A stretch of 64,000 bases of DNA from Flavobacterium tiangeerense. Its GTDB lineage: Bacteria > Bacteroidota > Bacteroidia > Flavobacteriales > Flavobacteriaceae. Of the stretch, positions 22,518-42,503 are shown in pieces; positions within the stretch are counted from its first letter, which is position 1; every line of letters begins with the position of its first letter. A program made the position numbers and the translations under genes. Where the stretch lies: NCBI RefSeq assembly GCF_007830355.1, contig NZ_VLKO01000007.1:186001-250000 (forward strand). The letters are read 5' to 3'. Below the pieces are notes generated by a model. The model was not told the DNA's origin. It saw nothing but the letters and a program-made list of their open reading frames with translations, and made no database searches.

Positions 22518-22553
22518 ACACTAAAAAGAGCTAAAACCTGGCTTTTTTAGTGT
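22518..22553 (-). terminator. Terminator at the end of the glucan utilization operon
   Basis: ACACTAAAAAGAGC (22518-22531) pairs with GCTTTTTTAGTGT (22541-22553) apart from one bulge; on the minus strand it is followed by a T-run. It lies 25 bases after the last GH16 gene. Confidence 0.85.
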
Positions 22554-22577: not shown

Positions 22578-23336
22578 TTATTGAAACACTTTTATGTAAT
22601 CAATATAAAATTTTTGAGGAAAAATTGCATCATCAACTTTGGGCCCTCCAAAATTACCTCCTATAGCCATGTTTATAATAAAATAAAATGGCTGGTTGTA
22701 TGGCCAAACAGCTTGGGTTTTTAATTCAGGCTGAAAAGTATACACTAACTTAGCATCTACAAAAAATTCTATTTTATCTGGTGTCCACTCTATGGCATAC
22801 AGGTGAAAACCCTCTTCAATAGACTCTATTTTTGTTTTTTTAGTGTTAATAGTATTTCCATGACTGTCTTGAGTATGTAACGATGTAAATACCATATTGG
22901 GTTCTTTACCCACATATTCAAGGATATCAATTTCTCCACACATGGGCCACCCAACTTGATCAATATTAGAGCCTAACATCCAAAAAGCGGGCCAAATCCC
23001 ATGCCCTACGGGAAGTTTTGCTCTTGCTTCAAATCTACCGTATTGAAATTCTTTTTTCCCTTTGGTAGTAATTCTTGTTGATGTGTATTTATTGTCTGCT
23101 TCTTTTTTTGCAGTAATTACTAAGCAACTTTTTTCAATTTTATGATTATCATTTGTATATAACTGTCTTTCATTATTACCCCATCCACAATTTGGGCAAC
23201 CATCACCCAACTCGATATTCCAAGTTTTTTCATTTAATGATTTTCCATTAAAGTGTTCTTCCCAAACTAATTTGCGAGTACCCACTTGTGCGAATGAACA
23301 AGTGAAAATTAGGAAACAAACCAATATATATTTCAT
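22578..23336 (-). CDS. GH16 endo-beta-glucanase (laminarinase-like)
   Basis: 252 residues. Signal peptide MKYILVCFLIFTCSFAQ. One GH16 catalytic domain fills the chain. The active-site motif GEIDILE gives nucleophile E135, assisting D137 and acid/base E140. The pattern E-I-D-I-L-E without an extra residue is close to the laminarinase-type subgroup with a beta-bulge. Also typical are YGRFEARAKLPVGHGIWPAFWML and the C-terminal FYIDYIKVFQ. Expected to cut internal beta-1,3 (or mixed) glucan bonds in the periplasm or outside. It is the last gene of the operon, seven bases after GH3. Two Cys pairs (47/50 and others) may form a disulfide. Confidence 0.95.
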   Translation of the reverse strand: MKYILVCFLIFTCSFAQVGTRKLVWEEHFNGKSLNEKTWNIELGDGCPNCGWGNNERQLYTNDNHKIEKSCLVITAKKEADNKYTSTRITTKGKKEFQYGRFEARAKLPVGHGIWPAFWMLGSNIDQVGWPMCGEIDILEYVGKEPNMVFTSLHTQDSHGNTINTKKTKIESIEEGFHLYAIEWTPDKIEFFVDAKLVYTFQPELKTQAVWPYNQPFYFIINMAIGGNFGGPKVDDAIFPQKFYIDYIKVFQ

Positions 23337-23342
23337 GAATGC

Positions 23343-25637
23343 TTAGTTTTTAAATTGAAAATCTTTTTCGAATTGTGTTACAGAACTGCCTCCAACAAAG
23401 ACTTTAAAATCTCCCGCTTCGGCTTCCCATTTTCTATTGGCGGTAAAAAATTCAATCGTTTTTTCATTGATTGTAAACACTACTTTCTTTGTTTCATTAG
23501 GTTGTAACTCTATTAATTCAAAACCTTTAAGTTCTTTTACAGGGCGCGTAACGCTGGCAATCAAATCTCTAATATACAACTGAACTACCTCTTTACCTAT
23601 TACATTACTTGTGTTTTTAATATTGACCGATACTTGAATAGATCCACCTTTTGCGAAAGCATTAGAAGACAATTCAAAACCTGAATATTCAAATTTAGAA
23701 TAACTTAAACCATGTCCGAAAGGAAATTGAGGCGTGTTTTTCTCGTCAATATAATGAGACCAAAAAACACTTTCAGGTTCATTCATTATAGGTCTTCCGG
23801 TATTTTTATAATTGTAATACAAAGGCAATTGCCCCACGTTACGCGGGAAAGACATTGGTAGTTTTCCGCTTGGATTGTAGTCTCCATATAGTACTTGCGC
23901 TATAGCGTTACCACTTTGTGTGCCTAACTGCCATCCCACTAAAATTGCAGGAATTTTTTCTGCAGCCCACGGAATAGCAAGAGGCCTACCATTGTTTAAA
24001 ACCAAAACAATATTAGGATTCACTTTATACACTGCCTCTAGTAATTCTTGCTGTACACCTGGTAAATCTATCTCGGTTCTGCTTCTACCTTCTCCAGATT
24101 GCAAACCGTGTTCTCCTAAAACCATTACCACAACATCTGCTTGTTTTGCATTTGCAATCGCTTCATCAAATCCCGTTTTATCTGTGGAGTTGATTTTAGT
24201 TTCCCAAATAAATTGAGTGCGTCCCACTGAAACATCAGCACCTTTTGAAAAAGTCAGTTGATTTCCAGAGTATTTTTGCAATCCTTCTAAAACAGAAACC
24301 GCCGTATTGTCTTCAGCTGCAATTCGCCAACTGCCTAATGGACTTGTTTTATCATTTGCCAAAGCACCAATTAATGCTATTTTTTGACCCGTTTTTTTTA
24401 ATGGTAAAATATTATTGTCATTTTTTAAAAGCACAATTGATTTTTTTGCCATGTCTAAAACACCTTCATGAAACTCGGGTTTACCTACTGTGGCTTGCTC
24501 TCTTTTTTCATCACAATATTTATAGGGATCATCAAAAAGTCCCAATTCAAATTTCACTTTCAATATACGTCTTGCAGCATCATCAATAAAGCTCTCTTTT
24601 ACTTTACCCTCTTTTACTAATACCACTAAATGATCTACATAAGCGCTTGATTCCATATCCATATCTGATCCTGCATTGATGGCAATCTCGGCAGCATGTT
24701 TGCTATCTTTGGCATATCCGTGAGCTATCATTTCGTTTATAGAACCCCAATCTGAAACTACAAAACCATCAAAATTCCACTCTTTCTTTAAAATATCCCT
24801 CTGTAAATACGCATTACCAGTAGCAGGTATGCCATTCAATTCATTGAAGGAATTCATAAAAGTACGCACGCCAGCATCAACCGCTGCCTTAAAAGGAGGG
24901 AAAATGGTGTTTTGCAACGTATTTTCGCTTACATCTACCGTGTTATAATCTCTACCTGATTCAGCAAAACCATAACCTGCAAAATGTTTGGCACAAGCCA
25001 AAATAGTATTGGTCGCAGCCAAATCATTTCCTTGAAAACCTTGTACGCGAGCCACCGCAATTTTACTTCCAAGGTATGGATCTTCGCCAGCTCCTTCCAT
25101 AACACGACCCCAGCGTGCATCACGAGCCACATCAACCATGGGAGCAAAAGTCCAATTTAATCCCTCTGCCGAAGCTTCTTCGGCAGCAATAGCCGCAGAT
25201 TTTTGTATGGCTTGTAAATCCCAACTTGCAGCTTCGGCAAGTGGAATAGGGCTAATTGTTTTATACCCGTGAATTACATCAAAGCCAAAAAGCAAAGGAA
25301 TTTTGAGACGGGTTTGTTCCACAGCTATTTTTTGCAAAGCGCGAACATCCTTTACCCCTTTTACGTTAAGCATAGATCCAACTAAGCCTTTTTTAAGGTC
25401 TTCGTATTTTTTTGCGGCTTGGCCTTCTTTTGGAGTGGGTCCCGTAATATCCCAAAAACCATTGTATTGATTGAGTTGTCCAACTTTTTCCTCTAAAGTC
25501 ATCAATTGAAGAACCGAATCAACCTTTCTATCTAATGCGTTTTTTTGCACCAAAGGAGTTGATGGTTGTGTGATTTTTTTACTACAAGCAACTACAAAAA
25601 ATAGGCTGCCAAGTATAAATAGAAATGAATACTTCAT
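23343..25637 (-). CDS. bglX: GH3 beta-glucosidase, lipoprotein
   Basis: 764 residues. Lipoprotein signal MKYSFLFILGSLFFVVAC with Cys18. GH3 (alpha/beta)8 domain at about 35-380: PLLFGFDVIHGYKTISPIPLAEAASWD, KHFAGYG, and GFVVSDWGS with nucleophile Asp296. The alpha/beta sandwich domain at about 400-620 contains VVMVLGEHGLQSGEGRSRT, and a fibronectin III-like domain ends the protein. This is the BglX architecture and size. It releases glucose from the non-reducing ends of beta-gluco-oligosaccharides, probably in the periplasm after SusCD uptake. A hairpin lies between this gene and the GH16 gene upstream. Confidence 0.95.
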   Translation of the reverse strand: MKYSFLFILGSLFFVVACSKKITQPSTPLVQKNALDRKVDSVLQLMTLEEKVGQLNQYNGFWDITGPTPKEGQAAKKYEDLKKGLVGSMLNVKGVKDVRALQKIAVEQTRLKIPLLFGFDVIHGYKTISPIPLAEAASWDLQAIQKSAAIAAEEASAEGLNWTFAPMVDVARDARWGRVMEGAGEDPYLGSKIAVARVQGFQGNDLAATNTILACAKHFAGYGFAESGRDYNTVDVSENTLQNTIFPPFKAAVDAGVRTFMNSFNELNGIPATGNAYLQRDILKKEWNFDGFVVSDWGSINEMIAHGYAKDSKHAAEIAINAGSDMDMESSAYVDHLVVLVKEGKVKESFIDDAARRILKVKFELGLFDDPYKYCDEKREQATVGKPEFHEGVLDMAKKSIVLLKNDNNILPLKKTGQKIALIGALANDKTSPLGSWRIAAEDNTAVSVLEGLQKYSGNQLTFSKGADVSVGRTQFIWETKINSTDKTGFDEAIANAKQADVVVMVLGEHGLQSGEGRSRTEIDLPGVQQELLEAVYKVNPNIVLVLNNGRPLAIPWAAEKIPAILVGWQLGTQSGNAIAQVLYGDYNPSGKLPMSFPRNVGQLPLYYNYKNTGRPIMNEPESVFWSHYIDEKNTPQFPFGHGLSYSKFEYSGFELSSNAFAKGGSIQVSVNIKNTSNVIGKEVVQLYIRDLIASVTRPVKELKGFELIELQPNETKKVVFTINEKTIEFFTANRKWEAEAGDFKVFVGGSSVTQFEKDFQFKN

Positions 25638-25658
25638 TTGTGGTATGTTTATTAAAGC

Positions 25659-25687
25659 AAAAGGCAGGTAAAAAAAACCTACCTTTT
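25659..25687 (-). promoter_or_regulatory. Intra-operon hairpin between GH16 lipoprotein and GH3 genes
   Basis: On the minus strand AAAAGGTAGGT pairs with ACCTGCCTTTT (one G-U) around a seven-T loop, just upstream of the GH3 start. It could lower read-through or protect the mRNA end. The following T-run is short (TTTT), so full termination is doubtful. Confidence 0.5.
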
Positions 25688-25712
25688 ACTATTATTGCTA
25701 ATTTAAATGTGC

Positions 25713-27353
25713 TTATTGATATACTCTTACATAATCAATCTCCATTGAGGACTGACTAAAGGCTGTATCAATAGCACCTCCAAAGGTTCCTCCCATTGCA
25801 ACATTTAAAATCAAAAAGAAATCTTTGTTAAATGGCAACGCACTTGTATTTGCAACCGTGTGAAACAATACATCATCAACATATATTTTTACTGATTCTG
25901 GGCTCCAAATGGTTTTGTAAATATGAAATTCAGAAGCAGCATTAGCTATTGTAGTTGAACTTCCATTACCATTACCTCCTGAATTTCCGGGATAATGTAA
26001 GGTGCCATATATAGTAGTAGGTTGACTGCCTTTGAATTCCATGATATCAATTTCTCCGCAGGCAGGCCAAGCATTAGTGGCATAATTCTCGCCTAGCATC
26101 CATATTGCTGGCCAAGTACCCGCCCCAGTTGTCAATTTAGCTCTCACCTCAACCCTTCCATAGGTAAATTCAAACTTGTTTTCAGACTTCAATCGAGCAG
26201 AAGTATAACCTGAACCTACTTTTTTAGCAGTAATTTTTAGGTTCCCACCGGCTACAACTACATTATCACTAGCGCTTGTATAAGACTGAGATTCATTATT
26301 ACCCCAACCTCCTGCACCTAAGTCATAACCCCATTTAGTAGGATCTGGTGCTCCGTCAGTATTGAATTCATCGCTAAATTTCAATACATTATAATTCGCA
26401 GATGGTGGTGTAACTGCTGCTCCAGGTGCTGTAGTAGTAAAGGTGTGGTACCAAGCTAGAAATGGATTTCCTGCTTGAATTACTCTTACTCTCATTCTGT
26501 TATCCGTTAAAGAAAGTATTTCATAAGAACTTGAACCAACAAAATACCCCATAAAACCTCCATCGGCAATATTTAAAACAGTTCCCCTAGTTTGAGTGGC
26601 AGCTCCTGGATTTTTAGAAACAAAAGAATCTGATTTACTAAGAGTAACTATTTTTAATCCTGTAGTAACCAAGTCAAAACATGCATCTTCATTAACGCCC
26701 TTGAGAGCAGCGTTATAATACGTTTGTCCTTTGTTATCCAATTCAAATTTCATTTGTTGTCCCACTAACGAGAAGGTCATTACACTTTTATACAAACAAG
26801 TTGCAGCTTTTTCATTGGCAGCAGCCCTATAAAAAGAGGGGTAATAATTTTGTGTTCCAAAGGTAGGATCAGACCAAGCCACATTAGGACCTACACCCAA
26901 ATGTTCTGGTTCACTTTGTGCCCAATACCATTTTTTACTAGATCCGCCAGTTAAAAATTGAACTGCAGCTTCATCTTTAAAGTTACTAAACACAGTAACC
27001 TCTATTGTAGTGCTAGAAGTCACTCCTCCTGCACCCGATGCTATGATGGTTACAGTATATGTATTAGTACCAGGAGTAGCGAATGGATATTCAAGAATTC
27101 CGCTTGGTTGATTTTTGCTTGTGCCATCACTAAAAACGTATTTGTATGAAATTGCATTTTCGGCGGTACTTATAAATTTTACTTTTCCTGATCCATCTCC
27201 ATTTGGAAATGCAGCTGATTTTCCAATAATTTCAGCAGTTACTTTTAGATTTGAGGGGGCATCAATGGCTCCAAATCCTAAATTATCCTCTTGACAATTG
27301 ACCATCAATAGCAGGATAAAAACGGAAACTATTTTGATTAGTATTTTTTTCAT
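25713..27353 (-). CDS. PKD-containing GH16 beta-glucanase lipoprotein
   Basis: 546 residues. Lipoprotein signal ending at Cys20 (LLLMVNC). Residues about 30-122 form a PKD-like domain (YKYVFSDGTSK ... TPGTNTYTVTIIASG). Residues about 130-310 form a middle domain with many aromatics, probably beta-sandwich and perhaps glycan-binding. Residues about 320-546 are the GH16 domain with motif GEIDIMEFKG (nucleophile E434, acid/base E439) and the closing MEIDYVRVYQ. Surface-anchored endo-glucanase that would make the first cuts for SusCD. Its catalytic domain and the GH16 at 22578 are clearly related but far from identical, so they are not a recent duplication. Confidence 0.93.
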   Translation of the reverse strand: MKKILIKIVSVFILLLMVNCQEDNLGFGAIDAPSNLKVTAEIIGKSAAFPNGDGSGKVKFISTAENAISYKYVFSDGTSKNQPSGILEYPFATPGTNTYTVTIIASGAGGVTSSTTIEVTVFSNFKDEAAVQFLTGGSSKKWYWAQSEPEHLGVGPNVAWSDPTFGTQNYYPSFYRAAANEKAATCLYKSVMTFSLVGQQMKFELDNKGQTYYNAALKGVNEDACFDLVTTGLKIVTLSKSDSFVSKNPGAATQTRGTVLNIADGGFMGYFVGSSSYEILSLTDNRMRVRVIQAGNPFLAWYHTFTTTAPGAAVTPPSANYNVLKFSDEFNTDGAPDPTKWGYDLGAGGWGNNESQSYTSASDNVVVAGGNLKITAKKVGSGYTSARLKSENKFEFTYGRVEVRAKLTTGAGTWPAIWMLGENYATNAWPACGEIDIMEFKGSQPTTIYGTLHYPGNSGGNGNGSSTTIANAASEFHIYKTIWSPESVKIYVDDVLFHTVANTSALPFNKDFFLILNVAMGGTFGGAIDTAFSQSSMEIDYVRVYQ

Positions 27354-27415
27354 TTTATTATTTTTTAATTTTTAGTGTATGTTTACTTTTCAACCTACTG
27401 TTATCCTTATAAAGG

Positions 27416-29011
27416 TTAATTGTGAAAATATACGTTGTCTACATAAACAGTTGTATTACCAGAAGGTGCTCCAACATAAATTAATTGTGCTATATGCGCT
27501 CTTGTAGTTAATCCTGTAAATTGACTCAATGGAATATCAAGACTAACCCATGATCCTTGGGCTGGAGAATTTACTGTTATTTCATGTTCTACATCATCGC
27601 CTCCACTAAAAGCTCCATCGGCACCAAAATCAACTAATTTAATCTTGAATTGTGTAAAATCAGAAGACCAAACATCAGTATGAAAATGAGTCATAGCCGT
27701 TGCATTTATAGGAGTTGAAGTAGCCTCAATACCCACAAAATTTAGAGCGCTATATTTTTTAGTTGCATTTCCGCTTATACTCAAATCAGTTAATGTCGCA
27801 CTAGACCAAGATGTTCTCCAGGTATCAACGGCTACATTTGTATATGCATCACTAAACATAGAAATCACACTTGATGCAGGACGTGTAGGTGTTGGCGCTG
27901 CAGTAACAGAGCCTGCAGTGTTGTAAAAAAACACATTGTCTACATAAACCGTATTACTTCCTGCTGGAGCTCCTACTAAAATTAATTGCGCAATGTGAGA
28001 ACGTGTAGTTAATCCTGTAAAATCACTTAAAGGAATGTCTAAACTTACCCATTCCTCTTTTTTAGGATTGGCAATGGTTATTTCGTGTTCTCTATCATCA
28101 CCACCGTCAAAAGTTCCGTTTGCACCAAAGTCAACTAGTTTTACTTTGAATTCGGTTACATCTGATGACCAAATATCAATATGAAAAAATGTCATAGCCG
28201 ATGCGTTTATAGGAGAAGAAGTAGCCTCTATACCCACAAAATTTAATGCGCTGTATTTTTTTGCTTTGTTTCCACTGATATCAATGTCCTCTAAAGTTGC
28301 TTGTGACCAAGAAGTTCTCCAGGTATCAACTGCAACATTAGTGTAGCTATCACTAAACATCGATATAACATTAGCAGCTGGAACCGTTGGTACTGGTGCA
28401 GCAAATAAATTTGTAACAGTAACTGGAGTTATTTTTTGGGTAGTTGCTGCACCACCGCTCAATGCTACAACACGTACATTGTAGGTTCCAGGGGTTTTGT
28501 AGGTGTGCGTAATTACTTGACCTTGCATGAAATCTACTGGAACTTCGTTAGGGACATCACCAAAATAAACTTGAAAAAAAGTCTCTAATTCTGCTTCTGC
28601 AGAAACATTTACGCTTAAATTACTACCAATTGCCACAGTCGACACTAAGTTCTTAGGTGCTAAAAACGAAACTGTTACATCTTGAATAGTTTCAGTTTTT
28701 TTGCCATTTAGGGTTATCCCAATGATTTTTGCTTTAAATACTCCCTCTCGGTATTTGTGGGTGTATGTCCCGCCAGGATTCACAATAATAGACTTTGTTG
28801 TAGCATCTCCAAAGAAGATTTCAAATTGAGTTACTCCTTCACCTTTTGGCAAAAAAGTAACATTACCTGAATTATCTTGTGTAATGGTTGTGAGTGCGGA
28901 AACGTTTTTTGGCGCACCTATAGTTTCTAAATCTACATCATTATTTTCCTCCGTACACCCAAAAGAAAGGGTCAGAATGAAAATACTTAGAATTAATTGT
29001 AACTTTTTCAT
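27416..29011 (-). CDS. Surface glycan-binding lipoprotein with two PKD-like and two duplicated C-terminal domains
   Basis: 531 residues. Lipoprotein signal with Cys19 (LTLSFGC). Two PKD-like domains follow at about 33-115 and 117-200 (FEIFFGDATTKSIIVNPGGTYTHKY; FQVYFGDVPNEV ... THTYKTPGTYNVRVVAL). Then come two copies of a domain of about 160 residues (205-364 and 372-531), each with VISMFSDxYTNVAVDTWRTSW, YSALNFVGIEATS and VYVDNVxF. No catalytic motif is seen. The position right after susD is that of a SusE/F-like surface glycan-binding protein (SGBP). The C-terminal domains look like carbohydrate-binding beta-sandwiches; binding to beta-1,3-glucan is inferred from the locus. Confidence 0.88.
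   Translation of the reverse strand: MKKLQLILSIFILTLSFGCTEENNDVDLETIGAPKNVSALTTITQDNSGNVTFLPKGEGVTQFEIFFGDATTKSIIVNPGGTYTHKYREGVFKAKIIGITLNGKKTETIQDVTVSFLAPKNLVSTVAIGSNLSVNVSAEAELETFFQVYFGDVPNEVPVDFMQGQVITHTYKTPGTYNVRVVALSGGAATTQKITPVTVTNLFAAPVPTVPAANVISMFSDSYTNVAVDTWRTSWSQATLEDIDISGNKAKKYSALNFVGIEATSSPINASAMTFFHIDIWSSDVTEFKVKLVDFGANGTFDGGDDREHEITIANPKKEEWVSLDIPLSDFTGLTTRSHIAQLILVGAPAGSNTVYVDNVFFYNTAGSVTAAPTPTRPASSVISMFSDAYTNVAVDTWRTSWSSATLTDLSISGNATKKYSALNFVGIEATSTPINATAMTHFHTDVWSSDFTQFKIKLVDFGADGAFSGGDDVEHEITVNSPAQGSWVSLDIPLSQFTGLTTRAHIAQLIYVGAPSGNTTVYVDNVYFHN
27419..27898 (-). repeat. Copy 2 of tandem coding repeat in the glycan-binding protein gene
   Basis: Encodes residues 372-531. About three quarters of its residues are identical to copy 1 by eye, so this is a relatively recent in-frame domain duplication. 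Confidence 0.9.
27920..28399 (-). repeat. Copy 1 of tandem coding repeat in the glycan-binding protein gene
   Basis: Encodes residues 205-364. Separated from copy 2 by a seven-residue linker (TAGSVTA). Confidence 0.9.
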
Positions 29012-29031
29012 ATCTAAATTATGTTAGTTTT

Positions 29032-30507
29032 TTAATATCCTTGATTTTGTTTCCAATTCCCATTTGCAAATTGAATTTCCTCGATAGGAATAGGAAATAA
29101 TTCGTGTTTGTTAGCTGTAAATCCTGGGATTTCTTGTGCAGCTTTACCAGTTCGAACTAAATCAAAGAAACGATGTCCTTCTCCTACTAATTCTACCCTT
29201 CTTTCTGCCAAAATAAAGTCAGTTAATGCCGCTCCCGATGTTGAAATATCATGGTTCAAGTCCCCAAAAGCACGTCTGCGAACTAAATTTAGGTATCCTC
29301 TTGCTTTTACATCGTCTATTCCACCACGGTTGAAAGCCTCTGCTGCCATTAATAATACATCAGCATATCGAATAGCGCGGTAGTTGTTAGGATTTGTCAA
29401 GTTTAAATCACCTTGAGCAGTTGTGCTTCTTTTTCTAGGAATGTACTTTCTGTTAAAAAACCCAGTATGCTCGTATCCTTTTCCAAAAGTTGCTCCTGTG
29501 CTAGTAGCCCAAGCTTCAATATCTAGGATGGCCACTGCTTTACGATTGTCACCAGCCTCAAAAGCGTTTACAATTTTTTGCGTAGGCACATTAAAACTAA
29601 ATCCAGATGAAAACAAAGTACCACTATAACTGCGTGGTCCACTAAAACCTACCGCTACATTCCCTTCACTACATTGGAGACATCCAAAACCGGCACCTTC
29701 AACATCAGTATATTGTACCTCAAAAACAGATTCTGCTCCATTTTCGCCTTCATTTTCAAAAATTGAATTATAATTTGGAACTAATGAATACGCCCCTGAC
29801 GTTATCAACTTATCAAAAGTTGTAGCAGCTGGTGCAAATTTGTTTTGGTACAAATAGGCTTTTCCTAACAAAGCAAGTGCTGCTCCACGAGTTGCTCTCC
29901 CTTTTTGAGTTGTTGTTACAGGTAAATTTTCGGAGGCAAAAATTAGATCGGCTTCTATAGATGCATAAACTTCTGATTTTGAAGAACGAGGGATTTTTTT
30001 CTCATCTCCTGGAACAAATCTTGCGTCTCCTTTCATCGGGATACCACCAAACCATTTTACTAGTTCAAAATGATAGTAAGCTCTTAGAAATCGAGTTTCG
30101 GCAATAATTTGGTTTTTGCCTTGAAAATCTGTTTTATTTTTAAATTCTAAGATATAGTTGGCTCTTTGAACACCTGCAAACATCCAATCCCAGAGATTTT
30201 TTAAATTGCTATTCACAGGGGTGTGAATCATATCATCAATTTGCTGAAAACCTGGAGTGTCTGATTGACTCTCGCCACCAGCCAAGGTATTATCAGAGGC
30301 AATTTCTCCTAAAAGTGAATTAAGATACGTGGTTTGCAACAAATCATAAGCAGCAATCAAGGCATTATCATAATCCTCTTTTGAGTTGAAATAATTTTCA
30401 GAATCAATAGAATATTCCACTGGTCTATCCACAAATTCATCACTACATGAAATGATAGTCATGGCTATAGCTGCTATCATTACGGTACTAAAAAGATATT
30501 TTTTCAT
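29032..30507 (-). CDS. susD: SusD/RagB-family nutrient-binding lipoprotein
   Basis: 491 residues. Lipoprotein signal MKKYLFSTVMIAAIAMTIISC with Cys21. SusD fold pieces: SENYFNSKEDYDNALIAAYDLLQ, the TPR-like helical part with ETRFLRAYYHFELVKWFGGIP (a family hallmark), RATRGAALALLGKAYLYQNKFAPAA, YRAIRYADVLLMAAEAFNRGG and a C-terminal ELVGEGHRFFDLVRTG and HELFPIPIEEI. It caps the SusC barrel on the cell surface and captures oligosaccharides. It lies 11 bases after susC, so the two are translationally close. The particular glycan cannot be read from SusD alone. Confidence 0.97.
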   Translation of the reverse strand: MKKYLFSTVMIAAIAMTIISCSDEFVDRPVEYSIDSENYFNSKEDYDNALIAAYDLLQTTYLNSLLGEIASDNTLAGGESQSDTPGFQQIDDMIHTPVNSNLKNLWDWMFAGVQRANYILEFKNKTDFQGKNQIIAETRFLRAYYHFELVKWFGGIPMKGDARFVPGDEKKIPRSSKSEVYASIEADLIFASENLPVTTTQKGRATRGAALALLGKAYLYQNKFAPAATTFDKLITSGAYSLVPNYNSIFENEGENGAESVFEVQYTDVEGAGFGCLQCSEGNVAVGFSGPRSYSGTLFSSGFSFNVPTQKIVNAFEAGDNRKAVAILDIEAWATSTGATFGKGYEHTGFFNRKYIPRKRSTTAQGDLNLTNPNNYRAIRYADVLLMAAEAFNRGGIDDVKARGYLNLVRRRAFGDLNHDISTSGAALTDFILAERRVELVGEGHRFFDLVRTGKAAQEIPGFTANKHELFPIPIEEIQFANGNWKQNQGY

Positions 30508-30518
30508 TTTAATTCAGA

Positions 30519-33500
30519 TTAAAAATTAATGTTCAAACCTAACAAGTAAGTTCTTGGAATAGGGTAAAAACCATTGTCAATACCTCCACCCAATGGAGCT
30601 CCACTTGATGCTCCGGGATCAAAACCTTTGTATTTTGTAAAAGTGTATAAGTTGTTTACACCGGCAAACAAACGTACTTTTGAAAGACCTGCTTTTTCAA
30701 TAAACTTATTTTCAAGTGCGTATCCTAACTGTATGTTTTGAATTCTTGCATACGAAGCATCTTCAACAAAAAAACTTGAAAAGTTTGAATTTCCTGTAGC
30801 GCCTGTTGTTACTCTCGGAGTTGAATTTGTACTTCCTTCACCTGTCCAACGGTCTAAAACATAATTCAGTCTGTTAACATCTGTTAGATTTCGTTCATAA
30901 TTTCGAACCATATCATTGCCTACAGAGGCAAAAGTATACATGGCAAAATCAAAGTTTTTGTAGTTCATTTGGACATTGAAACCCATTGTAGCTGCAGGAA
31001 TTGGATCACCAATATTAGTTCTATCACTGGCATTTAAAATACCATCACCATTTACATCAACAAATCTTAAATCACCTGGACTTGCCTCTGCTCCTAATGA
31101 TAATTGAGATGGATGCGCACTTACTTCGGCTTGATTCTGAAAAATACCATCTGTTTTATAGCCGTAGAAATAACCAATTGGTCTACCTACTTCCATTCTT
31201 GAAGGTGGTTGTTGACCAACTCCAAAGGATCCTCCCTCAAGATACCCAATACCATTGTTTACCTCTAGCACTTCGTTTTTCAAGAAAGTAACATTGTATC
31301 CTACGCTTAAAGAAAAGGAATCCGAAAACTTATTTTTATAATCCAAGGCTAGCTCTAAACCTGTATTTCTTACCGTACCTGCATTAATTGTAGGTGCATT
31401 AGATCCAGGTGCAGCAGCACCGTTAATTCCAGAAACAGGAATAAATGGAATTAACAAATCAGCTCTTGTGTCAATAAAATAATCTGCAACAAATGATATT
31501 TTGTTTTGAAGAAATCGTAAATCCAATCCTACATCAAACTTGCGGGCTTCTTCCCATTTTAAATTAGAATTTGGAATTTGGCCTACAGCAAAACCATTTA
31601 CTAACACATCATTAAAAACGTAAGTAGCCTCGCCATTTAATTGAGAAATATATCCATTGTTAGGGATTTGATCGTTTCCTAAAGTTCCGTAACTTCCTCT
31701 AAATTTCATGAAATTAATAAACTTATCTTGACCAAAGAAACTCTCATCAGATACTACCCAACCAGCTGTAAATGAAGGGAAGTATCCCACTTTGTTGCCA
31801 GGTCCAAATTTTGTAGAAGCATCACGACGAATCATTGCCGAGAAAAGATACTTCCCTTTATAATCATACTGACCTCTTGCAAAATAAGAAAGTCTACGTT
31901 CATCATAATTATACGAACTGTTTGTTACAACCGTTGCTATTCCTCTAGTTAAAGCAATATCAGCAAATTCCCAAGAATTATAAGGAACGTCAAAACCTGT
32001 GGCAAACAAACCATTACCATACTCTTTAAAAATAGTGTTACCTATAGTTGCTGTGATATTATGCGCATCGGCAATTTTCTTAGTATACGTACCATAAATA
32101 TCAAATGAATAATTATTGTCGTTTATAGCACCTTGAGTTACAGAACTTCTTTGTACATCAAAAACTTTTCCTCCATAACTGATTTGTTTAGAAAATGTTT
32201 TCGACTCGCTATTAGACGTATTAAATCCAATAGAACTCGTAATCACAAAATCTTTAAATAGTTTATAATCTAACCCAAAATTACCATTTAACTTCTTGAA
32301 GTTATAATCGTTATAGGTATTTGCAATTTGAGCTAAAGGATTTATTATTTCGTTACCAAGACCCGTACCTGCAAGTGTAAAGTCACCATTAGCATCATAC
32401 GGTTTTAGTGTAGACGGCATATTCAACGCATTAAATAACACAGAACCTAATCCACCTTCATTAAGTGTGTTTCTAGTAAAATAAGTGTAAATAACATTCG
32501 TTTTTAATTTCAATTTATCAGTTACATCTGCCCCTAGCGCAATTCTTGCAGTATTTCTTAAAAAGCCTGATTTTTTTTCTCCAATGATCCCTTCTTGATC
32601 AATGTGAGACCCACTCACTGCATAAGTTATTTTATCAGATCCTCCAGAGAAAGAAATATCATGATTGATTATTGGAACTGAAGTACTAAAAATTTCATTC
32701 TGCCAGTCGGTACCTTTACCCAATCCAGAAACATTTGGAAAAGGAATTGCGTTACCACCATTAGCATAACTTTCATTTAGTAATAATGCATATTCAGTGG
32801 CATTAAGAGTCGGTAATTTTCTTGAAGTTTCTTGAAAGCCAGTATAGGCATTGTAACTAATTTTAGATTTGGTATTCTTTTTACCTGATTTGGTTGTAAT
32901 CAAGATAATACCATTGGCACCAATAGTACCATAAATGGCAGCTTGAGCATCTTTTAATACCGTAATCGTTTCTATATCATTAGGATTTAGTAAGCCTAAC
33001 TCCCCTACATAACCATCTATAATAGTAGTAGGTCTATTTTCTCCATTTGTAGCAATACCTCTAATTCTAATATCTAGCGATGCACCTGGCGCTCCAGATG
33101 TAGAGGTAACATTTACTCCAGACACGGTTCCTTGCAATGCTTGTTCTACTCTAACTGGTTTTAAAACCTCAAGCGTTTTGCTATCTACAACAGAAACTGC
33201 TCCTGTTACTTCTCTCTTTTTTTGAGTTCCATACCCAATGACAACAATCTCGTCTAATGTATTTGCGTCTTCTTTTAAAACGATTGATAGGTTTTGTGTG
33301 GCTTGTGTAACCTTATATTCTACACTTTTAAAACCTACGAAAGAGAATATTAAAACGGAATTAGGCGAAACACCTTTTACATAAAAACGACCATCAAAAT
33401 CTGTTGTGGTTCCTGATGAAGAATTTTTTACTTGGATATTTACCCCTGGTATTGGTAAACCAGAACTTGCCTCTTTGACAACACCTCCTACATCATACCC

Positions 33501-33560
33501 TTGAGAAAAACCCAAAGTGGTTATGAATAGAAAAAAGATTAATAGATAGTTTGACTTCAT
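30519..33560 (-). CDS. susC: SusC/RagA-family TonB-dependent transporter
   Basis: 1013 residues. Signal peptide (to about residue 19), then a CarboxypepD_reg-like domain (GVVKEASSGLPIPGVNIQVKNS ... GTTTDFDGRFYVKGV) at about 25-105, a TonB box-like/plug domain with the SusC signature DEIVVIGYGTQKKREVTGAVS, a plug (VSGVNVTSTSGAPGASLDIRIRG) and a barrel to the C-terminus ending in TYLLGLNINF. Imports beta-glucan oligosaccharides with TonB energy together with SusD. It is the first gene of the operon; the 238-base gap upstream should contain its promoter and operator. Normal length for the family. Confidence 0.97.
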   Translation of the reverse strand: MKSNYLLIFFLFITTLGFSQGYDVGGVVKEASSGLPIPGVNIQVKNSSSGTTTDFDGRFYVKGVSPNSVLIFSFVGFKSVEYKVTQATQNLSIVLKEDANTLDEIVVIGYGTQKKREVTGAVSVVDSKTLEVLKPVRVEQALQGTVSGVNVTSTSGAPGASLDIRIRGIATNGENRPTTIIDGYVGELGLLNPNDIETITVLKDAQAAIYGTIGANGIILITTKSGKKNTKSKISYNAYTGFQETSRKLPTLNATEYALLLNESYANGGNAIPFPNVSGLGKGTDWQNEIFSTSVPIINHDISFSGGSDKITYAVSGSHIDQEGIIGEKKSGFLRNTARIALGADVTDKLKLKTNVIYTYFTRNTLNEGGLGSVLFNALNMPSTLKPYDANGDFTLAGTGLGNEIINPLAQIANTYNDYNFKKLNGNFGLDYKLFKDFVITSSIGFNTSNSESKTFSKQISYGGKVFDVQRSSVTQGAINDNNYSFDIYGTYTKKIADAHNITATIGNTIFKEYGNGLFATGFDVPYNSWEFADIALTRGIATVVTNSSYNYDERRLSYFARGQYDYKGKYLFSAMIRRDASTKFGPGNKVGYFPSFTAGWVVSDESFFGQDKFINFMKFRGSYGTLGNDQIPNNGYISQLNGEATYVFNDVLVNGFAVGQIPNSNLKWEEARKFDVGLDLRFLQNKISFVADYFIDTRADLLIPFIPVSGINGAAAPGSNAPTINAGTVRNTGLELALDYKNKFSDSFSLSVGYNVTFLKNEVLEVNNGIGYLEGGSFGVGQQPPSRMEVGRPIGYFYGYKTDGIFQNQAEVSAHPSQLSLGAEASPGDLRFVDVNGDGILNASDRTNIGDPIPAATMGFNVQMNYKNFDFAMYTFASVGNDMVRNYERNLTDVNRLNYVLDRWTGEGSTNSTPRVTTGATGNSNFSSFFVEDASYARIQNIQLGYALENKFIEKAGLSKVRLFAGVNNLYTFTKYKGFDPGASSGAPLGGGIDNGFYPIPRTYLLGLNINF

Positions 33561-33798
33561 AATTTATGTTTTTTGTGAATTATAAAATTAACACCTAAAG
33601 ACTGCTAATTTGTAAATTAGAACCACAACAAAAAACATACAAAGCAAAAAAAAACTAATATCACTGAATATTTCTCAAATTACTTCATAATTTACAGTGA
33701 AACTTAACTCTTAATAAAATCTTAAATCTCAAGAAATACACAACAATAACGTTAATGTTGTGGTAATGTATAGTTTTTTAGACCTAAAAAGTGATGAC
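33561..33798 (-). promoter_or_regulatory. Control region upstream of susC
   Basis: Non-coding, very AT-rich gap between the regulator stop and the susC start. It holds the 24-nt near-palindrome at 33739-33762 and a smaller inverted repeat, CTAATTT GT AAATTAG, at 33605-33620. A textbook TAnnTTTG box is not evident, which would fit an activator-dependent promoter. Confidence 0.55.
33739..33762. repeat. 24-nt near-palindrome, candidate operator
   Basis: Half-sites CACAACAATAAC and GTTAATGTTGTG are reverse complements except for one internal pair of positions; the centre is AACGTT. It lies 37 bases after the regulator gene and about 180 bases before susC. It has no following T-run, so a terminator is less likely than a protein-binding site. 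Confidence 0.5.
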
Positions 33799-36600
33799 CT
33801 ATACAGCTAAAATGTACTCTACAAGTCCTTGTTCATGCGATAATTCCATTTTTTTACGCAAACGATATCGTTTTATCTCAACACTTCGTACAGATATGTT
33901 CAATAAAGGTGCTACTTCTTTGGAGGATAGATTAAGTCTTAAATAAGCACACAATCTTAAATCATTAGGAGTTAATGTAGGATGCGCCGCCTTCATTTTT
34001 TTCAAGAAATCTTTATCTGTACTATCAAATGCCTCTTTAAAAATACTCCAACTGTCTCCTTGATTGATATTTTTATTTATGGTAGAAATTACAGATTTTA
34101 TACTTTTATTGCCATCCTCAGTTGTTTTTTTCAAATCTTCTTTGATAAAGGCCAACAACTCATTTTTACTATTCAAACTCATTGTAGATGCAGCCAATTC
34201 TTTATTTTTTGAATCAACCACTTGAGAAAGTTGTTCGTTTTTAATTCGCATAACCTCTTGCTCGTTCTCCAACTCTTTTATTTCTAATAACAGATTGTTC
34301 TCCTCTATTAATTTTTTTTCTAATTGTTCATAATAGCGTTTGTAAGCCTTGTGTATAAATCTTGCTGCAAAGACTAGCACAATTAAATAAATCAAAAGCG
34401 CGACATGAGTAAAGTACCAAGGTTTGTTTATTCTAAACGAATAGGATATCGTACTATCTAAAGTGGAATTAGCATATTTTGCTCTAACTTTTAAGGTGTA
34501 ATACCCAGGAGGTAGATTCTTAAAATTAACGGATGACTTTGCACTCCATTCACTCCATTCCTCTTGAAACCCTTCGAGTAAGTACTGAAACTCTACATTT
34601 ATATACTTATTGAACTCGGGTACAGCATAAAAAACTGAAATGTTATTTTCATCATGATCAAAACTTCCCTCACTTAGAATACTTTGATTTTGAAACGATT
34701 CGTTTTGTTTATTTGTAGTTATTCCTGATAATGAAACGTTGTAATTCTTTAAACCTAATTCATTTAAATTTAAAATATAATATCCATCAGTTGTTCCTAT
34801 TAAATAATTGGAGTGAGAAATTTGAGTTATATTTTCATATCCCAACATAGAGTTTGTCAAAGCTGCTGGTATGGGAATTAAATTTTGAACTAGTTGATTA
34901 CTAAATTTACTAAGAGAAAAATAATGAATGTAATTCTTTGAAAACAACCAAATCTTATTAGAATTGTCAACAATTAATTTTCCAGATGTGTATTCATCTT
35001 TTTCAAAAACAGTACTCAATACTTTGTCTTTTACAAACTGTTTAGATTTTTGATTCAGTTTAAAAATACCTGCTTTATTAGCATAATAAATTTCATTATT
35101 AAAGGTAGTTAAGCTTGCATTTTTCCCTTTTTGAGGTGTTTTATAAGCCTGAACTCGTTGTACTTTCAATAGATCTTTATCAAGTTCCAGTCTATAAATC
35201 CCTTTATATTCATGACTTACGTATACATCTGAATTTTTTGAAATCTCAAAATACTTAGACGAATAATCAAAACCTGTTATTTTATTTCTAAAAATCCATT
35301 GATTATTTCTTTTTTCTAAAACTGAAATACCGAAATAATTGCCCTGTAATAGTACTGTTTTCTTATTTTTTACCTTTTCAAATTTCCAAGTTCCAGATGC
35401 AGAAAAAATATTCTTAGCCATCCCATTCTCAACAATAAATGTCCCTGAATCATGACCACAAAAAAGCGTACCATCATGTTCAAATAAAGACCATACTTGA
35501 CCTTTAGTACCACTCACAAAACGAAATTCCTCCTGTACAGAATCCTTTTTAAAAAACAATCCTTGATTTGTTCCTACATATAAGTTCCCGTTACATTTTA
35601 AAGAGGTGTAAACAGTCCCCAATATTCCTGTATCATCACTATAATTTTGAATGGGCGAACGCAAATTGATACAATTGATACCATTGTCAAGGCCCAACCA
35701 TACATTTTGATCAACATCTTCATAGAGTGATAAAACAGTATTATTACTCAAACCTTTATTTTGAGTGATATGAAATTTCAATTTACCTGCTGTATCAAGT
35801 ATAAAAACACCATTTGAAATAGTTCCCAAGGCAAAACTTCCATCACTTAACCTTTGACTGCAATACACATTTCCTGTTGCAAATTCATCGTCTACATCTG
35901 TTTTAATTTTTTTCAAACGTTTATCAATAAGTTTAAAAAAACCATTTTGTTGCGTTTGTAAAAGGAGTCCATCATCATCAGCAAAAATATTTACCAACTT
36001 ATTTTGCAATACAATTTGATCATTGGTTACAAGACGATACGTACCACTTTCTATTTCAAAAAGACCTTCATTTGCTATTTGAAAATAAATTGCATCTTTA
36101 GTACGAAAAGATTTAGTAATGTTATTTTTTGGACTAATGATGTTAAAAGTATCCGTCTTAGTATCATAAATATACATTCTATTTAAAGACTGAAAAACAA
36201 CCCATTGTTCAAAATCTAAAACATTCCAAAACTGTTCATCATCAAGAATTTTGTTTTTTATTTTTTTACTTAAGGAATAGTATTTAAGTTTCCCGTTGGA
36301 TATTCGTTTCCAAAAACCAAATTCCATGTAGGCACCCGAATAAATTTTATTACCTATAACCTTTACAGATCGTATAATGGTTTCGTTTGGAGACGGGTAC
36401 AGTTCCCAATTAGCACCATTAAATTCTAGTAGTCCTTCATTATTTGCTAGATAAATAAATTGCTTTTTATCCTGTGAAATCATCCAGTTTTGATTTCCTG
36501 CGCCATACGTTGCAGAACTATATTTTACAATAGGGGGGAGCTCTTGTGAAAAGCCACAAAAACAGCATAAAAAAAGAATAAGGTATAACTTTGTTTTCAA
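33799..36600 (-). CDS. One-piece transmembrane regulator: Reg_prop propeller, Y_Y_Y domain, LuxR-type HTH
   Basis: 933 residues from a TTG at 36600 (no ATG available); the start gives a good signal peptide, MKTKLYLILFLCCFCGFSQ. Residues about 20-640 are propeller repeats typical of Reg_prop sensors (for example VLSLYEDVDQNVWLGLDNGINCI). A Y_Y_Y domain follows (about 640-730: FQYLLEGFQEEWSEWS, LPPGYYTLKVRA), then one membrane helix (about 738-760), a long coiled coil (about 765-820), and a C-terminal HTH (LRLNLSSKEVAPLLNISVRSVEIKRYRLRKK). The periplasmic part resembles hybrid two-component systems, but no kinase or receiver is present. The expected role is direct sensing of glucan products and activation of susC. 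Confidence 0.9.
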   Translation of the reverse strand: MKTKLYLILFLCCFCGFSQELPPIVKYSSATYGAGNQNWMISQDKKQFIYLANNEGLLEFNGANWELYPSPNETIIRSVKVIGNKIYSGAYMEFGFWKRISNGKLKYYSLSKKIKNKILDDEQFWNVLDFEQWVVFQSLNRMYIYDTKTDTFNIISPKNNITKSFRTKDAIYFQIANEGLFEIESGTYRLVTNDQIVLQNKLVNIFADDDGLLLQTQQNGFFKLIDKRLKKIKTDVDDEFATGNVYCSQRLSDGSFALGTISNGVFILDTAGKLKFHITQNKGLSNNTVLSLYEDVDQNVWLGLDNGINCINLRSPIQNYSDDTGILGTVYTSLKCNGNLYVGTNQGLFFKKDSVQEEFRFVSGTKGQVWSLFEHDGTLFCGHDSGTFIVENGMAKNIFSASGTWKFEKVKNKKTVLLQGNYFGISVLEKRNNQWIFRNKITGFDYSSKYFEISKNSDVYVSHEYKGIYRLELDKDLLKVQRVQAYKTPQKGKNASLTTFNNEIYYANKAGIFKLNQKSKQFVKDKVLSTVFEKDEYTSGKLIVDNSNKIWLFSKNYIHYFSLSKFSNQLVQNLIPIPAALTNSMLGYENITQISHSNYLIGTTDGYYILNLNELGLKNYNVSLSGITTNKQNESFQNQSILSEGSFDHDENNISVFYAVPEFNKYINVEFQYLLEGFQEEWSEWSAKSSVNFKNLPPGYYTLKVRAKYANSTLDSTISYSFRINKPWYFTHVALLIYLIVLVFAARFIHKAYKRYYEQLEKKLIEENNLLLEIKELENEQEVMRIKNEQLSQVVDSKNKELAASTMSLNSKNELLAFIKEDLKKTTEDGNKSIKSVISTINKNINQGDSWSIFKEAFDSTDKDFLKKMKAAHPTLTPNDLRLCAYLRLNLSSKEVAPLLNISVRSVEIKRYRLRKKMELSHEQGLVEYILAV

Positions 36601-36760
36601 TGGTAGCGTTCGTTTGTTTTGTCAAAAATAAACCTAAAAATAGTACTTATTTATCGGATGGAAAACATAAATACCATACAAGGCCAAAATTGACTTTTAA
36701 ACCTCAGTTTTAATCATTATTTGTGAGTTGTTCATCCTGAAATCTCTGTTCAAAATTGAT

Positions 36761-36768
36761 TACTTTTG
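36761..36768 (+). promoter_or_regulatory. Candidate -7 box of uvrA (TACTTTTG)
   Basis: Exact TAnnTTTG match 18 bases before the ATG at 36786, implying a very short leader. No clear -33 element. Confidence 0.5.
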
Positions 36769-36785
36769 TAAAAATTATCATTTTT

Positions 36786-39584
36786 ATGCAAGTTGACCTT
36801 TCTAAATTAGACCCAAAAAAAAATATCATTATAAAAGGAGCGCAAGTACACAATTTAAAAAACGTGGATGTTGCTATACCTAGAAATAAACTAGTGGTTA
36901 TTACAGGTCTTTCAGGATCTGGAAAATCAAGCTTAGCATTTGATACTTTGTACGCCGAGGGACAGCGCAGGTATGTTGAAAGCTTATCCTCTTATGCCCG
37001 CCAATTTCTTGGCAGACTCGATAAACCAAAGGTAGAATATATTAAAGGTATTGCTCCAGCTATTGCCATTGAACAAAAGGTAAATACTACAAATGCACGT
37101 TCAACTGTGGGTACTTCTACAGAAATTTATGATTATATAAAATTACTTTTTGCAAGAATAGGACGCACTTATTCCCCAGTTTCTGGTGTTGAAGTCAAAA
37201 AAAATACAGTAACTGATGTTGTAAATGCGGTCAAAAAGCTAGAACAAAACAGCAAATGGTTGTTATTAGCTCCCATTCATTTAGAACCCGGACGCAAACT
37301 ACAAGACAAACTCAATGTTCTTTTGCAACAAGGTTTTGCTAGAATCCTTGTAAACAATGAAATGATTAGGCTGGATACCATTCCAGATGAAATAAATGAA
37401 AAGGAAGTTTATTTAATAGTTGACCGTATTGTGGTTAACCAAGATCCCGAAGTTGAAGAAGAATTTTACAACCGCCTAGCAGATGCGGTTCAAACTGCTT
37501 TTTTTGAAGGGAAAGGCGTTTGCTACTTACAAGAATTAAACACCCATATTAAACATACTTTTTCAAATAATTTTGAACTGGATGGCATCACTTTTTTAGA
37601 ACCAAATGTTCATTTATTTAGTTTTAACAATCCTTATGGCGCCTGCCCAGTGTGCGAAGGCTACGGAAACATTATTGGTATCGATGCTGAACTAGTTGTT
37701 CCAAATACTACTTTATCTATTTTTGAAAATGCTATTTTTCCATGGCGTGGTGATAGTATGAGTTGGTATCGTGACGAGTTAGTTAACAAAGCTTATAAAT
37801 TTGATTTTCCCATTCACAAACCTTTTTATCAACTTACTGAGACTCAAAAAGAACTTATTTGGACAGGAAATAGCTATTTTCAGGGATTGAATGTTTTTTT
37901 TAAAGAGCTTGAAGAAAAAAACTATAAAATCCAAAACAGAGTAATGCTTTCTCGCTATCGAGGCAAGACAAAGTGTACCTCATGTAAAGGAAAAAGGCTG
38001 CGTGTAGAAGCTTCTTATGTTAAGATTAATCAAAAAACAGTTTCTGATTTGGTTGATTTGCCTATCAAGCATTTGGATACTTTTTTCAAAAACTTAGAAT
38101 TAAATTCTTATGAAAAACAAATAGCCAATAGATTGCTAATTGAAATCAACAACAGACTGTCTTTTTTAACTGAAGTAGGTCTTGATTACTTAACACTCAA
38201 TAGAAATTCAGCGACATTGTCTGGTGGTGAATCACAACGTATTAACTTAGCTACTTCACTTGGCAGTAGCTTGGTAGGATCTATGTATATCTTGGATGAG
38301 CCAAGCATCGGGTTACACCCTAAAGATACTGAAAGACTAATAAAAGTACTACTGTCTTTAAGAGATTTAGGTAATACTGTAATTGTTGTAGAGCATGACG
38401 AGGATATCATGAAAGCAGCAGATATGATCATTGACATTGGCCCCGAAGCTGGTAGTCTTGGTGGAAATTTAGTGGCCCAAGGAACATTTGACGAAATATT
38501 AAAATCTACTTCTCTTACAGCAAAATATCTGAATGGTGATTTAGAAATTTCGGTACCAAAAAAACGCCGACAGTTTAAGAACTTCATTGAAATTAAAGGA
38601 GCTCGCGAAAACAACTTACAAAATATTGATGTTACATTTCCGTTAGATGTTTTAACGGTCATTACAGGTGTTTCAGGTAGTGGAAAAAGTACACTGGTAA
38701 AGAAAATTCTTTTTCCAGCTATGCAAAAAAAGCTAGAAAATATTGGTGAAAAAGCAGGTCAATTCTCAGAAATATCAGGTTCGTTTTCGCAAATAAAACA
38801 TATCGAATATGTAGATCAAAACCCAATAGGTAGAAGTTCACGTTCAAATCCGGTAACGTATATCAAAGCATATGATGACATTAGGGATTTGTATGCCAAA
38901 GAAAAACTTTCAAAAGTAAGAGGATACCAAGCCAAACATTTTTCATTTAATGTTGATGGTGGGCGCTGCGAAACCTGTAAAGGCGAGGGATCTATCAACG
39001 TAGAGATGGTGTTTATGGCTGATGTGCAATTACCATGTGAAACCTGCCACGGAAAACGATTTAAAAAAGAAGTATTAGAGGTAGCTTTTGAAGGGAAAAA
39101 CATTCATGAAATTCTAACCTTGACCATTGATGATGCAATTGCTTTTTTTACAGCTCAAAAACAAACTAAAATAACTCAAAAATTGCAACCGCTGCAAGAT
39201 GTAGGTTTGGGTTATGCACAACTAGGACAATCATCCTCAACCCTTTCTGGCGGAGAAGCACAACGTATAAAACTGGCATCATTTTTAGTAAAAGGAGCCA
39301 CAAAAGACAAAGCTTTATTTGTTTTTGATGAACCTACAACAGGACTTCATTTTCATGACATCAAGAAATTATTGGCGTCTTTTGATGCTTTAATTGAGAA
39401 AGGACATTCTATAATAGTAATTGAACACAATCTTGACTTAATAAAATGTGCCGACTGGTTAATTGATCTTGGTCCTGAAGGTGGAGAAAATGGAGGGAAA
39501 TTATTAGCGGTTGGTACTCCAGAGCAGGTGGTGAAAAATAAAGAATCTATTACTGGAACCTATTTAAAAGCAGTTCTAAAATAA
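36786..39584 (+). CDS. uvrA: Excinuclease ABC subunit A
   Basis: 932 residues from the ATG at 36786. Damage-recognition ATPase of nucleotide excision repair. Two ABC ATPase modules: Walker A GLSGSGKSS (N) and GVSGSGKST (C), signatures LSGGESQR and LSGGEAQR, and Walker B MYILDEPSIGLH and LFVFDEPTTGLH. Zinc-binding pairs are visible as CPVCEGYG, CTSCKGKR, CETCKGEG and CETCHGKR. The insertion between about residues 120 and 250 fits the UvrB-binding domain. Cytoplasmic. Monocistronic with its own promoter box and a strong terminator. Divergent from the one-piece regulator. Confidence 0.98.
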   Translation: MQVDLSKLDPKKNIIIKGAQVHNLKNVDVAIPRNKLVVITGLSGSGKSSLAFDTLYAEGQRRYVESLSSYARQFLGRLDKPKVEYIKGIAPAIAIEQKVNTTNARSTVGTSTEIYDYIKLLFARIGRTYSPVSGVEVKKNTVTDVVNAVKKLEQNSKWLLLAPIHLEPGRKLQDKLNVLLQQGFARILVNNEMIRLDTIPDEINEKEVYLIVDRIVVNQDPEVEEEFYNRLADAVQTAFFEGKGVCYLQELNTHIKHTFSNNFELDGITFLEPNVHLFSFNNPYGACPVCEGYGNIIGIDAELVVPNTTLSIFENAIFPWRGDSMSWYRDELVNKAYKFDFPIHKPFYQLTETQKELIWTGNSYFQGLNVFFKELEEKNYKIQNRVMLSRYRGKTKCTSCKGKRLRVEASYVKINQKTVSDLVDLPIKHLDTFFKNLELNSYEKQIANRLLIEINNRLSFLTEVGLDYLTLNRNSATLSGGESQRINLATSLGSSLVGSMYILDEPSIGLHPKDTERLIKVLLSLRDLGNTVIVVEHDEDIMKAADMIIDIGPEAGSLGGNLVAQGTFDEILKSTSLTAKYLNGDLEISVPKKRRQFKNFIEIKGARENNLQNIDVTFPLDVLTVITGVSGSGKSTLVKKILFPAMQKKLENIGEKAGQFSEISGSFSQIKHIEYVDQNPIGRSSRSNPVTYIKAYDDIRDLYAKEKLSKVRGYQAKHFSFNVDGGRCETCKGEGSINVEMVFMADVQLPCETCHGKRFKKEVLEVAFEGKNIHEILTLTIDDAIAFFTAQKQTKITQKLQPLQDVGLGYAQLGQSSSTLSGGEAQRIKLASFLVKGATKDKALFVFDEPTTGLHFHDIKKLLASFDALIEKGHSIIVIEHNLDLIKCADWLIDLGPEGGENGGKLLAVGTPEQVVKNKESITGTYLKAVLK

Positions 39585-42465: not shown

Positions 42466-42503
42466 TATTTTATGATTGTAAAACACAAACAGGCTTTACT
42501 TTA

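Follow-up and report, generated by a model that had tools for sequence, protein, structure and literature searches.

Organization of the locus

The window analysed here is a stretch of 64,000 nucleotides from Flavobacterium tiangeerense (RefSeq assembly GCF_007830355.1, contig NZ_VLKO01000007.1, positions 186,001 to 250,000, forward strand), and positions given below are those of the window unless stated otherwise. A run of seven minus-strand open reading frames (ORFs) occupies positions 22578-36600 (contig C7 of the 3.51 Mb genome). It very probably constitutes a utilization locus for laminarin, a β-1,3-glucan, and one of its products, a predicted surface glycan-binding protein (SGBP), carries two copies of an uncatalogued domain, referred to as the bead, which is the sole part of the locus that may be new. 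The features are listed with position, strand, description and, where applicable, supporting evidence (GH, glycoside hydrolase; HTH, helix-turn-helix; aa, amino acids).

22518..22553, minus: hairpin of the intrinsic-terminator type, closing the operon (sequence; fold z -4.3)
22578..23336, minus: GH16 endo-β-1,3-glucanase, ULam111-like, 252 aa (Pfam PF00722, 99.5 bits; PDB 5wut)
23343..25637, minus: GH3 β-glucosidase, BglX-type, 764 aa (Pfam; NCBIfam BglX; PDB GH3 matches)
25713..27353, minus: GH16 lipoprotein, 546 aa, with a PKD-like domain, a 7kv5-related domain of ~180 residues and a C-terminal GH16 domain
27416..29011, minus: SGBP-like surface glycan-binding lipoprotein (predicted), 531 aa, with a PKD stalk and two beads
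27419..27910, minus: bead 2, second copy of the bead domain and the copy used for structure prediction
27914..28405, minus: bead 1, uncatalogued β-sandwich domain of ~165 residues
28400..29011, minus: SGBP stalk, interpreted as a pair of PKD-like domains (one PKD above the Pfam cut-off)
29032..30507, minus: SusD-like glycan-binding lipoprotein (Pfam)
30519..33560, minus: SusC-like TonB-dependent outer-membrane transporter (TIGR04056, 820.5 bits)
33799..36600, minus: one-piece sensor-regulator, Reg_prop, Y_Y_Y and LuxR-type HTH (Pfam; AlphaFold model)

Transcription proceeds in the order regulator, SusC, SusD, PKD lipoprotein, GH16 lipoprotein, GH3 and GH16. The seven genes and their positions, proposed earlier in a sequence-only reading of the window, were confirmed by the ORF list and by Pfam and NCBIfam domains; lipoprotein signals were judged by eye from the N-termini. 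The terminator proposed in the same reading proved real by folding, although the hairpin was not listed in a consensus scan. Its minus-strand RNA was predicted to fold at -20.8 kcal/mol, compared with -9.5 kcal/mol (standard deviation 2.6) in 200 shuffles, and at the hairpin foot stand six U residues, of which the prediction pairs three. Promoter-like matches in the consensus scan (72 versus 70.7 expected) were uninformative.

Enzymes, transport proteins and locus class

Both GH16 proteins carry the E-x-D-x-x-E motif, as EIDIME at residue 434 of the lipoprotein and as EIDILE at residue 135 of the 252-aa enzyme. Among their PDB matches (the best 60 of 68 for the 252-aa enzyme and 48 of 48 for the lipoprotein), the top-ranking proteins were laminarinases or endo-1,3-β-glucanases, with 437 and 194 bits in the same order, far above κ-carrageenase (33 bits, small GH16 only) and endo-β-galactosidase (37-38 bits with both proteins). 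An agarase or carrageenase assignment, which the sequence-only reading had named as a result that would refute it, was rejected on this ranking. The closest solved structures to the GH16 lipoprotein were the endo-1,3-β-glucanases 4bq1, which we take to be ZgLamC or ZgLamA of Zobellia, and 4bow (E 3.2e-56). Its N-terminus is lipobox-like, and the N-terminal region showed a PKD match below the Pfam cut-off and matched the 'PKD domain protein' 7kv5 in a search with a seven-member profile (E 4.5e-19). The GH3 protein was assigned to the NCBIfam family BglX with 783.7 bits (cut-off 666). For the SusD-like protein, the best solved relative was 6gcz (E 8e-64), followed by 9sje and 9sjj and, at ranks 4-6, by 7kv4, 7kv2 and 7kv1; 6gcz and 7kv1-7kv7 presumably originate from β-glucan loci of marine and gut Bacteroidota. 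The 252-aa GH16 aligned with ULam111 (PDB 5wut) at E 1.5e-130, with 184 of 231 aligned residues identical (80%), and kept nine of nine compared ULam111 residues (E118, D120, E123, H137, N33, W113, F212 and C31-C34). In the accessible part of the ULam111 study, the first four are given as catalytic, N33, W113 and F212 as substrate residues and C31-C34 as a pair, and the kcat is reported to be about tenfold higher on curdlan and laminarin than on lichenin (PMC5595797). The enzymes of the locus add nothing new.

Laminarin polysaccharide utilization loci (PULs) of variant A, described first from Gramella forsetii and upregulated on laminarin, contain one GH3 framed by two GH16 genes, according to the excerpt available of Kappelmann et al. 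(PMC6298971). The window locus has the same SusC/SusD pair and the same GH3 between two GH16 genes, and its enzyme set does not differ from variant A as described in that excerpt. A comparison set of 78 named loci was assembled from sequences resembling the bead domain, of which the best 80 among at least 558 were taken; it is therefore biased towards the window locus, and some of its members are clipped by contig ends. The order regulator-SusC-SusD-SGBP-GH16-GH3-GH16 was present in 23 of the 78, with 17 more lacking the GH3, and is far beyond chance. As a locus, the cluster is ordinary: a standard seven-gene Flavobacterium laminarin cluster. The 17 loci whose two GH16 genes have no recognised GH3 between them are L070, L072-L075, L077, L078, L082-L084, L087, L088, L094, L098, L099, L104 and L118.

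Regulator

The AlphaFold model of the regulator (mean pLDDT 76) matched the periplasmic parts of Bacteroides thetaiotaomicron hybrid two-component system (HTCS) sensors, with E 8e-34 for 3ott and a better superposition with 4a2l and 3v9f. Like the HTCS sensors BT4663, BT3049 and BT4673 (PDB 4a2l, 3v9f and 3ott), it shows a periplasmic double propeller followed by Y_Y_Y; unlike them, it has no detected kinase or receiver and carries its HTH within the one polypeptide. Pfam, applied at E up to 0.001, returned only Reg_prop, Y_Y_Y and a GerE match below cut-off (20.3 bits versus 23.5), with no histidine kinase or receiver domain; the sister protein at a second glucan locus of this genome passes the GerE cut-off at 26.3 bits. 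A single hydrophobic stretch at about residues 728-750 precedes a long, poorly predicted helix and the C-terminal HTH. On this model, the protein is an HTCS-like propeller sensor fused to a LuxR-type HTH. The PDB title of BT4673 names a 'putative one component system', and a figure legend in PMC7157763 places SusR-like sensor-regulators beside HTCS in related loci. The regulator had been called unusual when the window was first read, a description that did not hold: homologues were found in 67 of the 78 named loci and at the second glucan locus, so that it is a standard partner, and its interpretation as a locus-specific oddity was rejected.

Sequence and predicted fold of the bead

The duplication of the bead is visible in the DNA as two direct-repeat blocks of 300 and 132 nt, spaced by 501 nt and 76-77% identical. 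Searched as a whole, the SGBP yielded only PKD in Pfam, nothing in NCBIfam and nothing better than E 0.58 in the PDB; the window bead by itself had no Pfam match at E up to 1. The first PKD-like domain of the stalk was visible, below cut-off, in a relative. The nearest named relative of the bead domain among the matches listed was from Flavobacterium sp. I-STPP5a (99% identical). A search for viral relatives gave three pattern matches, none of which was confirmed.

Bead 2 was modelled by AlphaFold as a β-sandwich with a pLDDT of 96.5. Foldseek placed carbohydrate-binding modules (CBMs) on top, namely CBM30 (2.8e-6), CBM11 (6.1e-6) and CBM29 (1.7e-5), and the VIA Z scores were 13.2 for CBM8, 12.7 for a complex I assembly factor, 12.6 for CBM29 and CBM11, and 11.7 for 8qx6. 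The predicted bead fold is therefore a β-sandwich like those of CBM8, CBM11, CBM29 and CBM30; non-CBM proteins share it, so that the fold is CBM-like and not exclusive to CBMs.

CBM11 of Clostridium thermocellum Lic26A-Cel5E (PDB 1v0a and 6r3m) has the same fold as the bead (Z 12.6 and 12.4) and a weak profile match: with an alignment of 50 bead copies, the only PDB sequences below E 0.01 were those of C. thermocellum CBM11 (E 0.0021-0.0024). The two share 13% identity, and the Pfam CBM_11 model does not recognise the window bead. Of the 50 aligned beads, seven were matched by CBM_11 at E up to 1 (best 2.1e-4); the whole multi-bead protein of one relative exceeded the cut-off of 27 with 28.0 bits, although no individual stretch did so by itself. 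Assignment of the bead to CBM11 was rejected, given that the likeness is confined to the fold and a weak profile match and that the window bead is not picked up by the Pfam model.

Genomic link of the bead to GH16 and GH17

A set of 100 family genomes, each from a different genus, contained the bead in 49 cases and GH16 in 70. All 49 bead-positive genomes carried GH16, and none of the 30 genomes lacking GH16 carried the bead (Fisher 4.5e-12). When three genomes with weak bead matches only (G054, G081 and G105) were dropped, the count was 46 of 46; the weak matches of G081 and G105 overlap matches of an alternative, 8qx6-type bead, which is linked to GH16 likewise (52 of 52). PL7 alginate lyase, included as a control for a general polysaccharide appetite, did not track the bead (14 of 49 bead-positive genomes versus 9 of 51; p 0.24). 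Among 40 closer relatives, the SGBP was matched in 18, all of which lie within the 26 carrying GH16.

The link extends to gene distances. Bead positions were defined by E below 1e-10 (95 matches kept, 16 weaker ones dropped), and the distances are conservative in that the weakest GH16 and GH17 places were not all included. At least 50 of 68 bead clusters lay within 10 kb of GH16, compared with about 1.5 expected by uniform placement (an estimate from a table summing to 67 clusters, versus the 68 counted). At least 14 of the other 18 lay within 10 kb of GH17, so that at least 64 of 68 were near one or the other. The bead thus occurs in GH17-type laminarin loci too; bead proteins within 3 kb of GH17 were seen in G044, G056, G083, G084, G087, G100, G108, G110 and G121. 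Four clusters had no listed GH16 or GH17 nearby: L159, which is the same kind of locus interrupted by a contig end; L160, a secreted two-bead protein amid housekeeping genes; L158, a secreted protein that adjoins SusCD and has four bead matches, two strong and two weak; and one on G106 C12.

Stalk-less multi-bead proteins are the next recognised gene to the regulator in L055 (= L024:17713-19545), L065, L086, L089, L095, L111, L117 and L122, and the one of L024/L055 bears a type IX secretion tail. They are possibly secreted glucan-binding proteins under the same control. One bead also occurs in a 2383-aa protein (L031:171-7322, minus strand) that combines it with PA14, GH16, a type IX secretion tail and repeats of the Ig/PKD-like kind.

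Alternation of bead types on the stalk

Of 397 family genomes, 169 gave stalk matches (E up to 0.001). This stalk also carries, in relatives, the alternative bead, which matches PDB 8qx6 at E 1.4e-34, an entry named 'Novel laminarin-binding CBM X584' and derived from a 'PKD domain-containing protein'. Members of the 8qx6 family occupy these slots on PKD-stalk lipoproteins of the same kind, and the fold of 8qx6 is similar to that predicted for the window bead (rmsd, root-mean-square deviation, 3.1 over 134 residues). In profile-profile comparison the two types are remotely linked (hhalign 96.5%). In searches with the window bead profiles (A1 and A3), 8qx6 was not listed at E up to 10, and membership of the window bead in the 8qx6 family was rejected on the absence of this match.

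Selection by the stalk alone, taking the top-scoring loci from the matched genomes, gave 29 loci, of which 15 carried only the 8qx6-type bead, 4 only the window type and 7 both, and 3 contained unassigned stretches; some of the proteins were clipped by short flanks. A quick tree of 81 stalks was built, with bead-selected loci included and 23 of its 78 inner branches drawn open; stalk L144, to which no bead was assigned, was omitted, and the count of type changes excludes three rows that contain unassigned stretches. On this tree, the bead make-up (one type, the other or mixed) changes at least 14 times but the first bead only 4 times, suggesting frequent gain and loss along the array and rare replacement next to the stalk.

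Substrate of the locus and function of the bead

The substrate call of β-1,3-glucan is well supported by sequence comparison. The steps proposed before, in which GH16 would cut at the surface, SusCD would take up the products and GH3 would finish them, were supported likewise. Two points weigh against a firm call: the GH16 enzymes of this group can cut mixed-linkage glucans too, and GH3 membership does not fix the linkage. A locus serving mainly mixed-linkage β-1,3/1,4-glucans (lichenan, cereal glucan), with laminarin secondary, would agree with the excerpt of PMC6298971, where variant A GH16 enzymes are said to be possibly active on such glucans, with the activity of a Bacteroides GH16_3 in the part available of PMC7157763, and with the presence of CBM11, solved with a mixed-linkage tetrasaccharide, among the nearest solved folds of the bead. 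It is quite improbable in view of the small GH16, which shares 80% of its aligned residues with ULam111, N33, W113 and the unusual F212 among them, ULam111 being about tenfold slower on lichenin according to the excerpt cited above. The Bacteroides 1,3GUL, as far as described in that part of PMC7157763, shares SusCD, an extra SGBP-B, GH16_3 and GH3 with the window locus; the Bacteroides uniformis version differs in having an HTCS regulator and GH158. A laminarin locus of the variant A kind is kept as the reading of the window locus, with high confidence.

For the bead, the likeliest role is that of a laminarin-binding module occupying the SGBP slots in common with the 8qx6-type module. Beyond this, the beads may represent an undescribed, Bacteroidota-wide family of β-1,3-glucan-binding domains, with a conserved PKD stalk that repeatedly takes this or the 8qx6-type bead and thereby tunes capture while the enzymes stay unchanged; this is put forward tentatively, as a proposal whose chances are nearly balanced but lean slightly to the negative. 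The laminarin-binding role of the bead is weakened by the 3 of 68 bead clusters that have no listed GH16 or GH17 within 10 kb and no known contig-end cause (G041, and G106 twice, on short contigs), by the complex I assembly factor (Z 12.7), agarase parts and a xanthanase that score as high as CBMs, by the most conserved bead residues, which appear structural and of which none could be pinned to a binding site, and by the first bead changing just 4 times, so that much of the pattern is inherited by clade. The residues and the shared fold would also suit beads that act as structural spacers or protein-protein modules of the surface complex and bind no sugar. Such a role is unlikely: the beads take the positions of a module whose structure was solved as laminarin-binding, share its co-occurrence with GH16 (49 of 49 and 52 of 52) and are also present in secreted multi-bead proteins bearing a type IX tail, where there need be no SusCD complex to hold. 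A stronger contender, only somewhat less likely than not, is that the bead binds laminarin and already belongs to a named CAZy CBM family beyond Pfam, NCBIfam and the PDB, which do not cover all CBM families. A 2024 study of laminarin CBMs reportedly defined two laminarin-binding families in Christiangramia forsetii, and we take CBM102 and CBM103 to be the names of laminarin-binding families. Against such a placement, 8qx6 is matched by the alternative bead and not by the window bead, and the second of these families reportedly sits on a GH16 protein, whereas the window GH16 protein has a different, 7kv5-matching domain at that place. A search of the available literature found no paper for CBM102 or CBM103, or for X584 with laminarin.

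For the locus as a whole, we infer the following course of binding, cutting, import and induction. The SGBP, raised on its PKD stalk at the cell surface, would hold the glucan by its two β-sandwich beads, and chain cutting would fall to the surface GH16 lipoprotein, which has an SGBP-B-like domain of its own. Oligosaccharides would be imported by SusCD and degraded to glucose by the second GH16 and the GH3. The propellers of the membrane sensor-regulator would read periplasmic oligosaccharides, and its LuxR-type HTH would switch the operon on. Laminarin is a storage sugar of algae and among the main algal sugars consumed by flavobacteria, in which such loci are common. If the proposal of an undescribed binding family is true, the bead would be a missing annotation marker for β-1,3-glucan capture, present in 49 of the 100 sampled genera, and the stalk, with its two alternating bead types, would lend itself as a natural experiment on the reasons for this alternation.

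Second glucan locus and neighbouring genes

The sequence-only reading had stated that the locus contains no GH17 or GH30, which was upheld by Pfam, and had left β-1,6 branches possibly unprocessed by it, a picture that was incomplete, as two GH30 genes lie elsewhere in the genome. They belong to a second β-glucan locus, L046 (G000:C4:98001-118000), which carries a third GH16 and comprises a regulator, SusCD, a 288-aa protein without a Pfam match, the GH16, an endonuclease/exonuclease/phosphatase-family protein, the two GH30, a GH5 that bears a fascin-like domain and a type IX secretion tail, and a GH3. It resembles variants C and D in the excerpt of PMC6298971. By sequence comparison, the β-1,6 branches would probably be left to this second locus and its two GH30 and GH5 enzymes. 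A search that detected GH17 in 32 of 100 genomes of the family did not find it in this one.

Just downstream of the terminator lies an ECF (extracytoplasmic function) sigma factor gene (21729-22313, minus strand), with no sign of locus membership. A uvrA-family gene (36756-39584, plus strand) is divergent from the regulator at a distance of ~155 bases. Further along the window, a row of polysaccharide-synthesis/export, glycosyltransferase and YfhO-family genes occupies positions 40999-46271 (minus strand), and at 59465-62406 (minus strand) a PorP/SprF-family gene stands beside an OmpA/PD40 gene, as in the gene pairs of type IX secretion and gliding.

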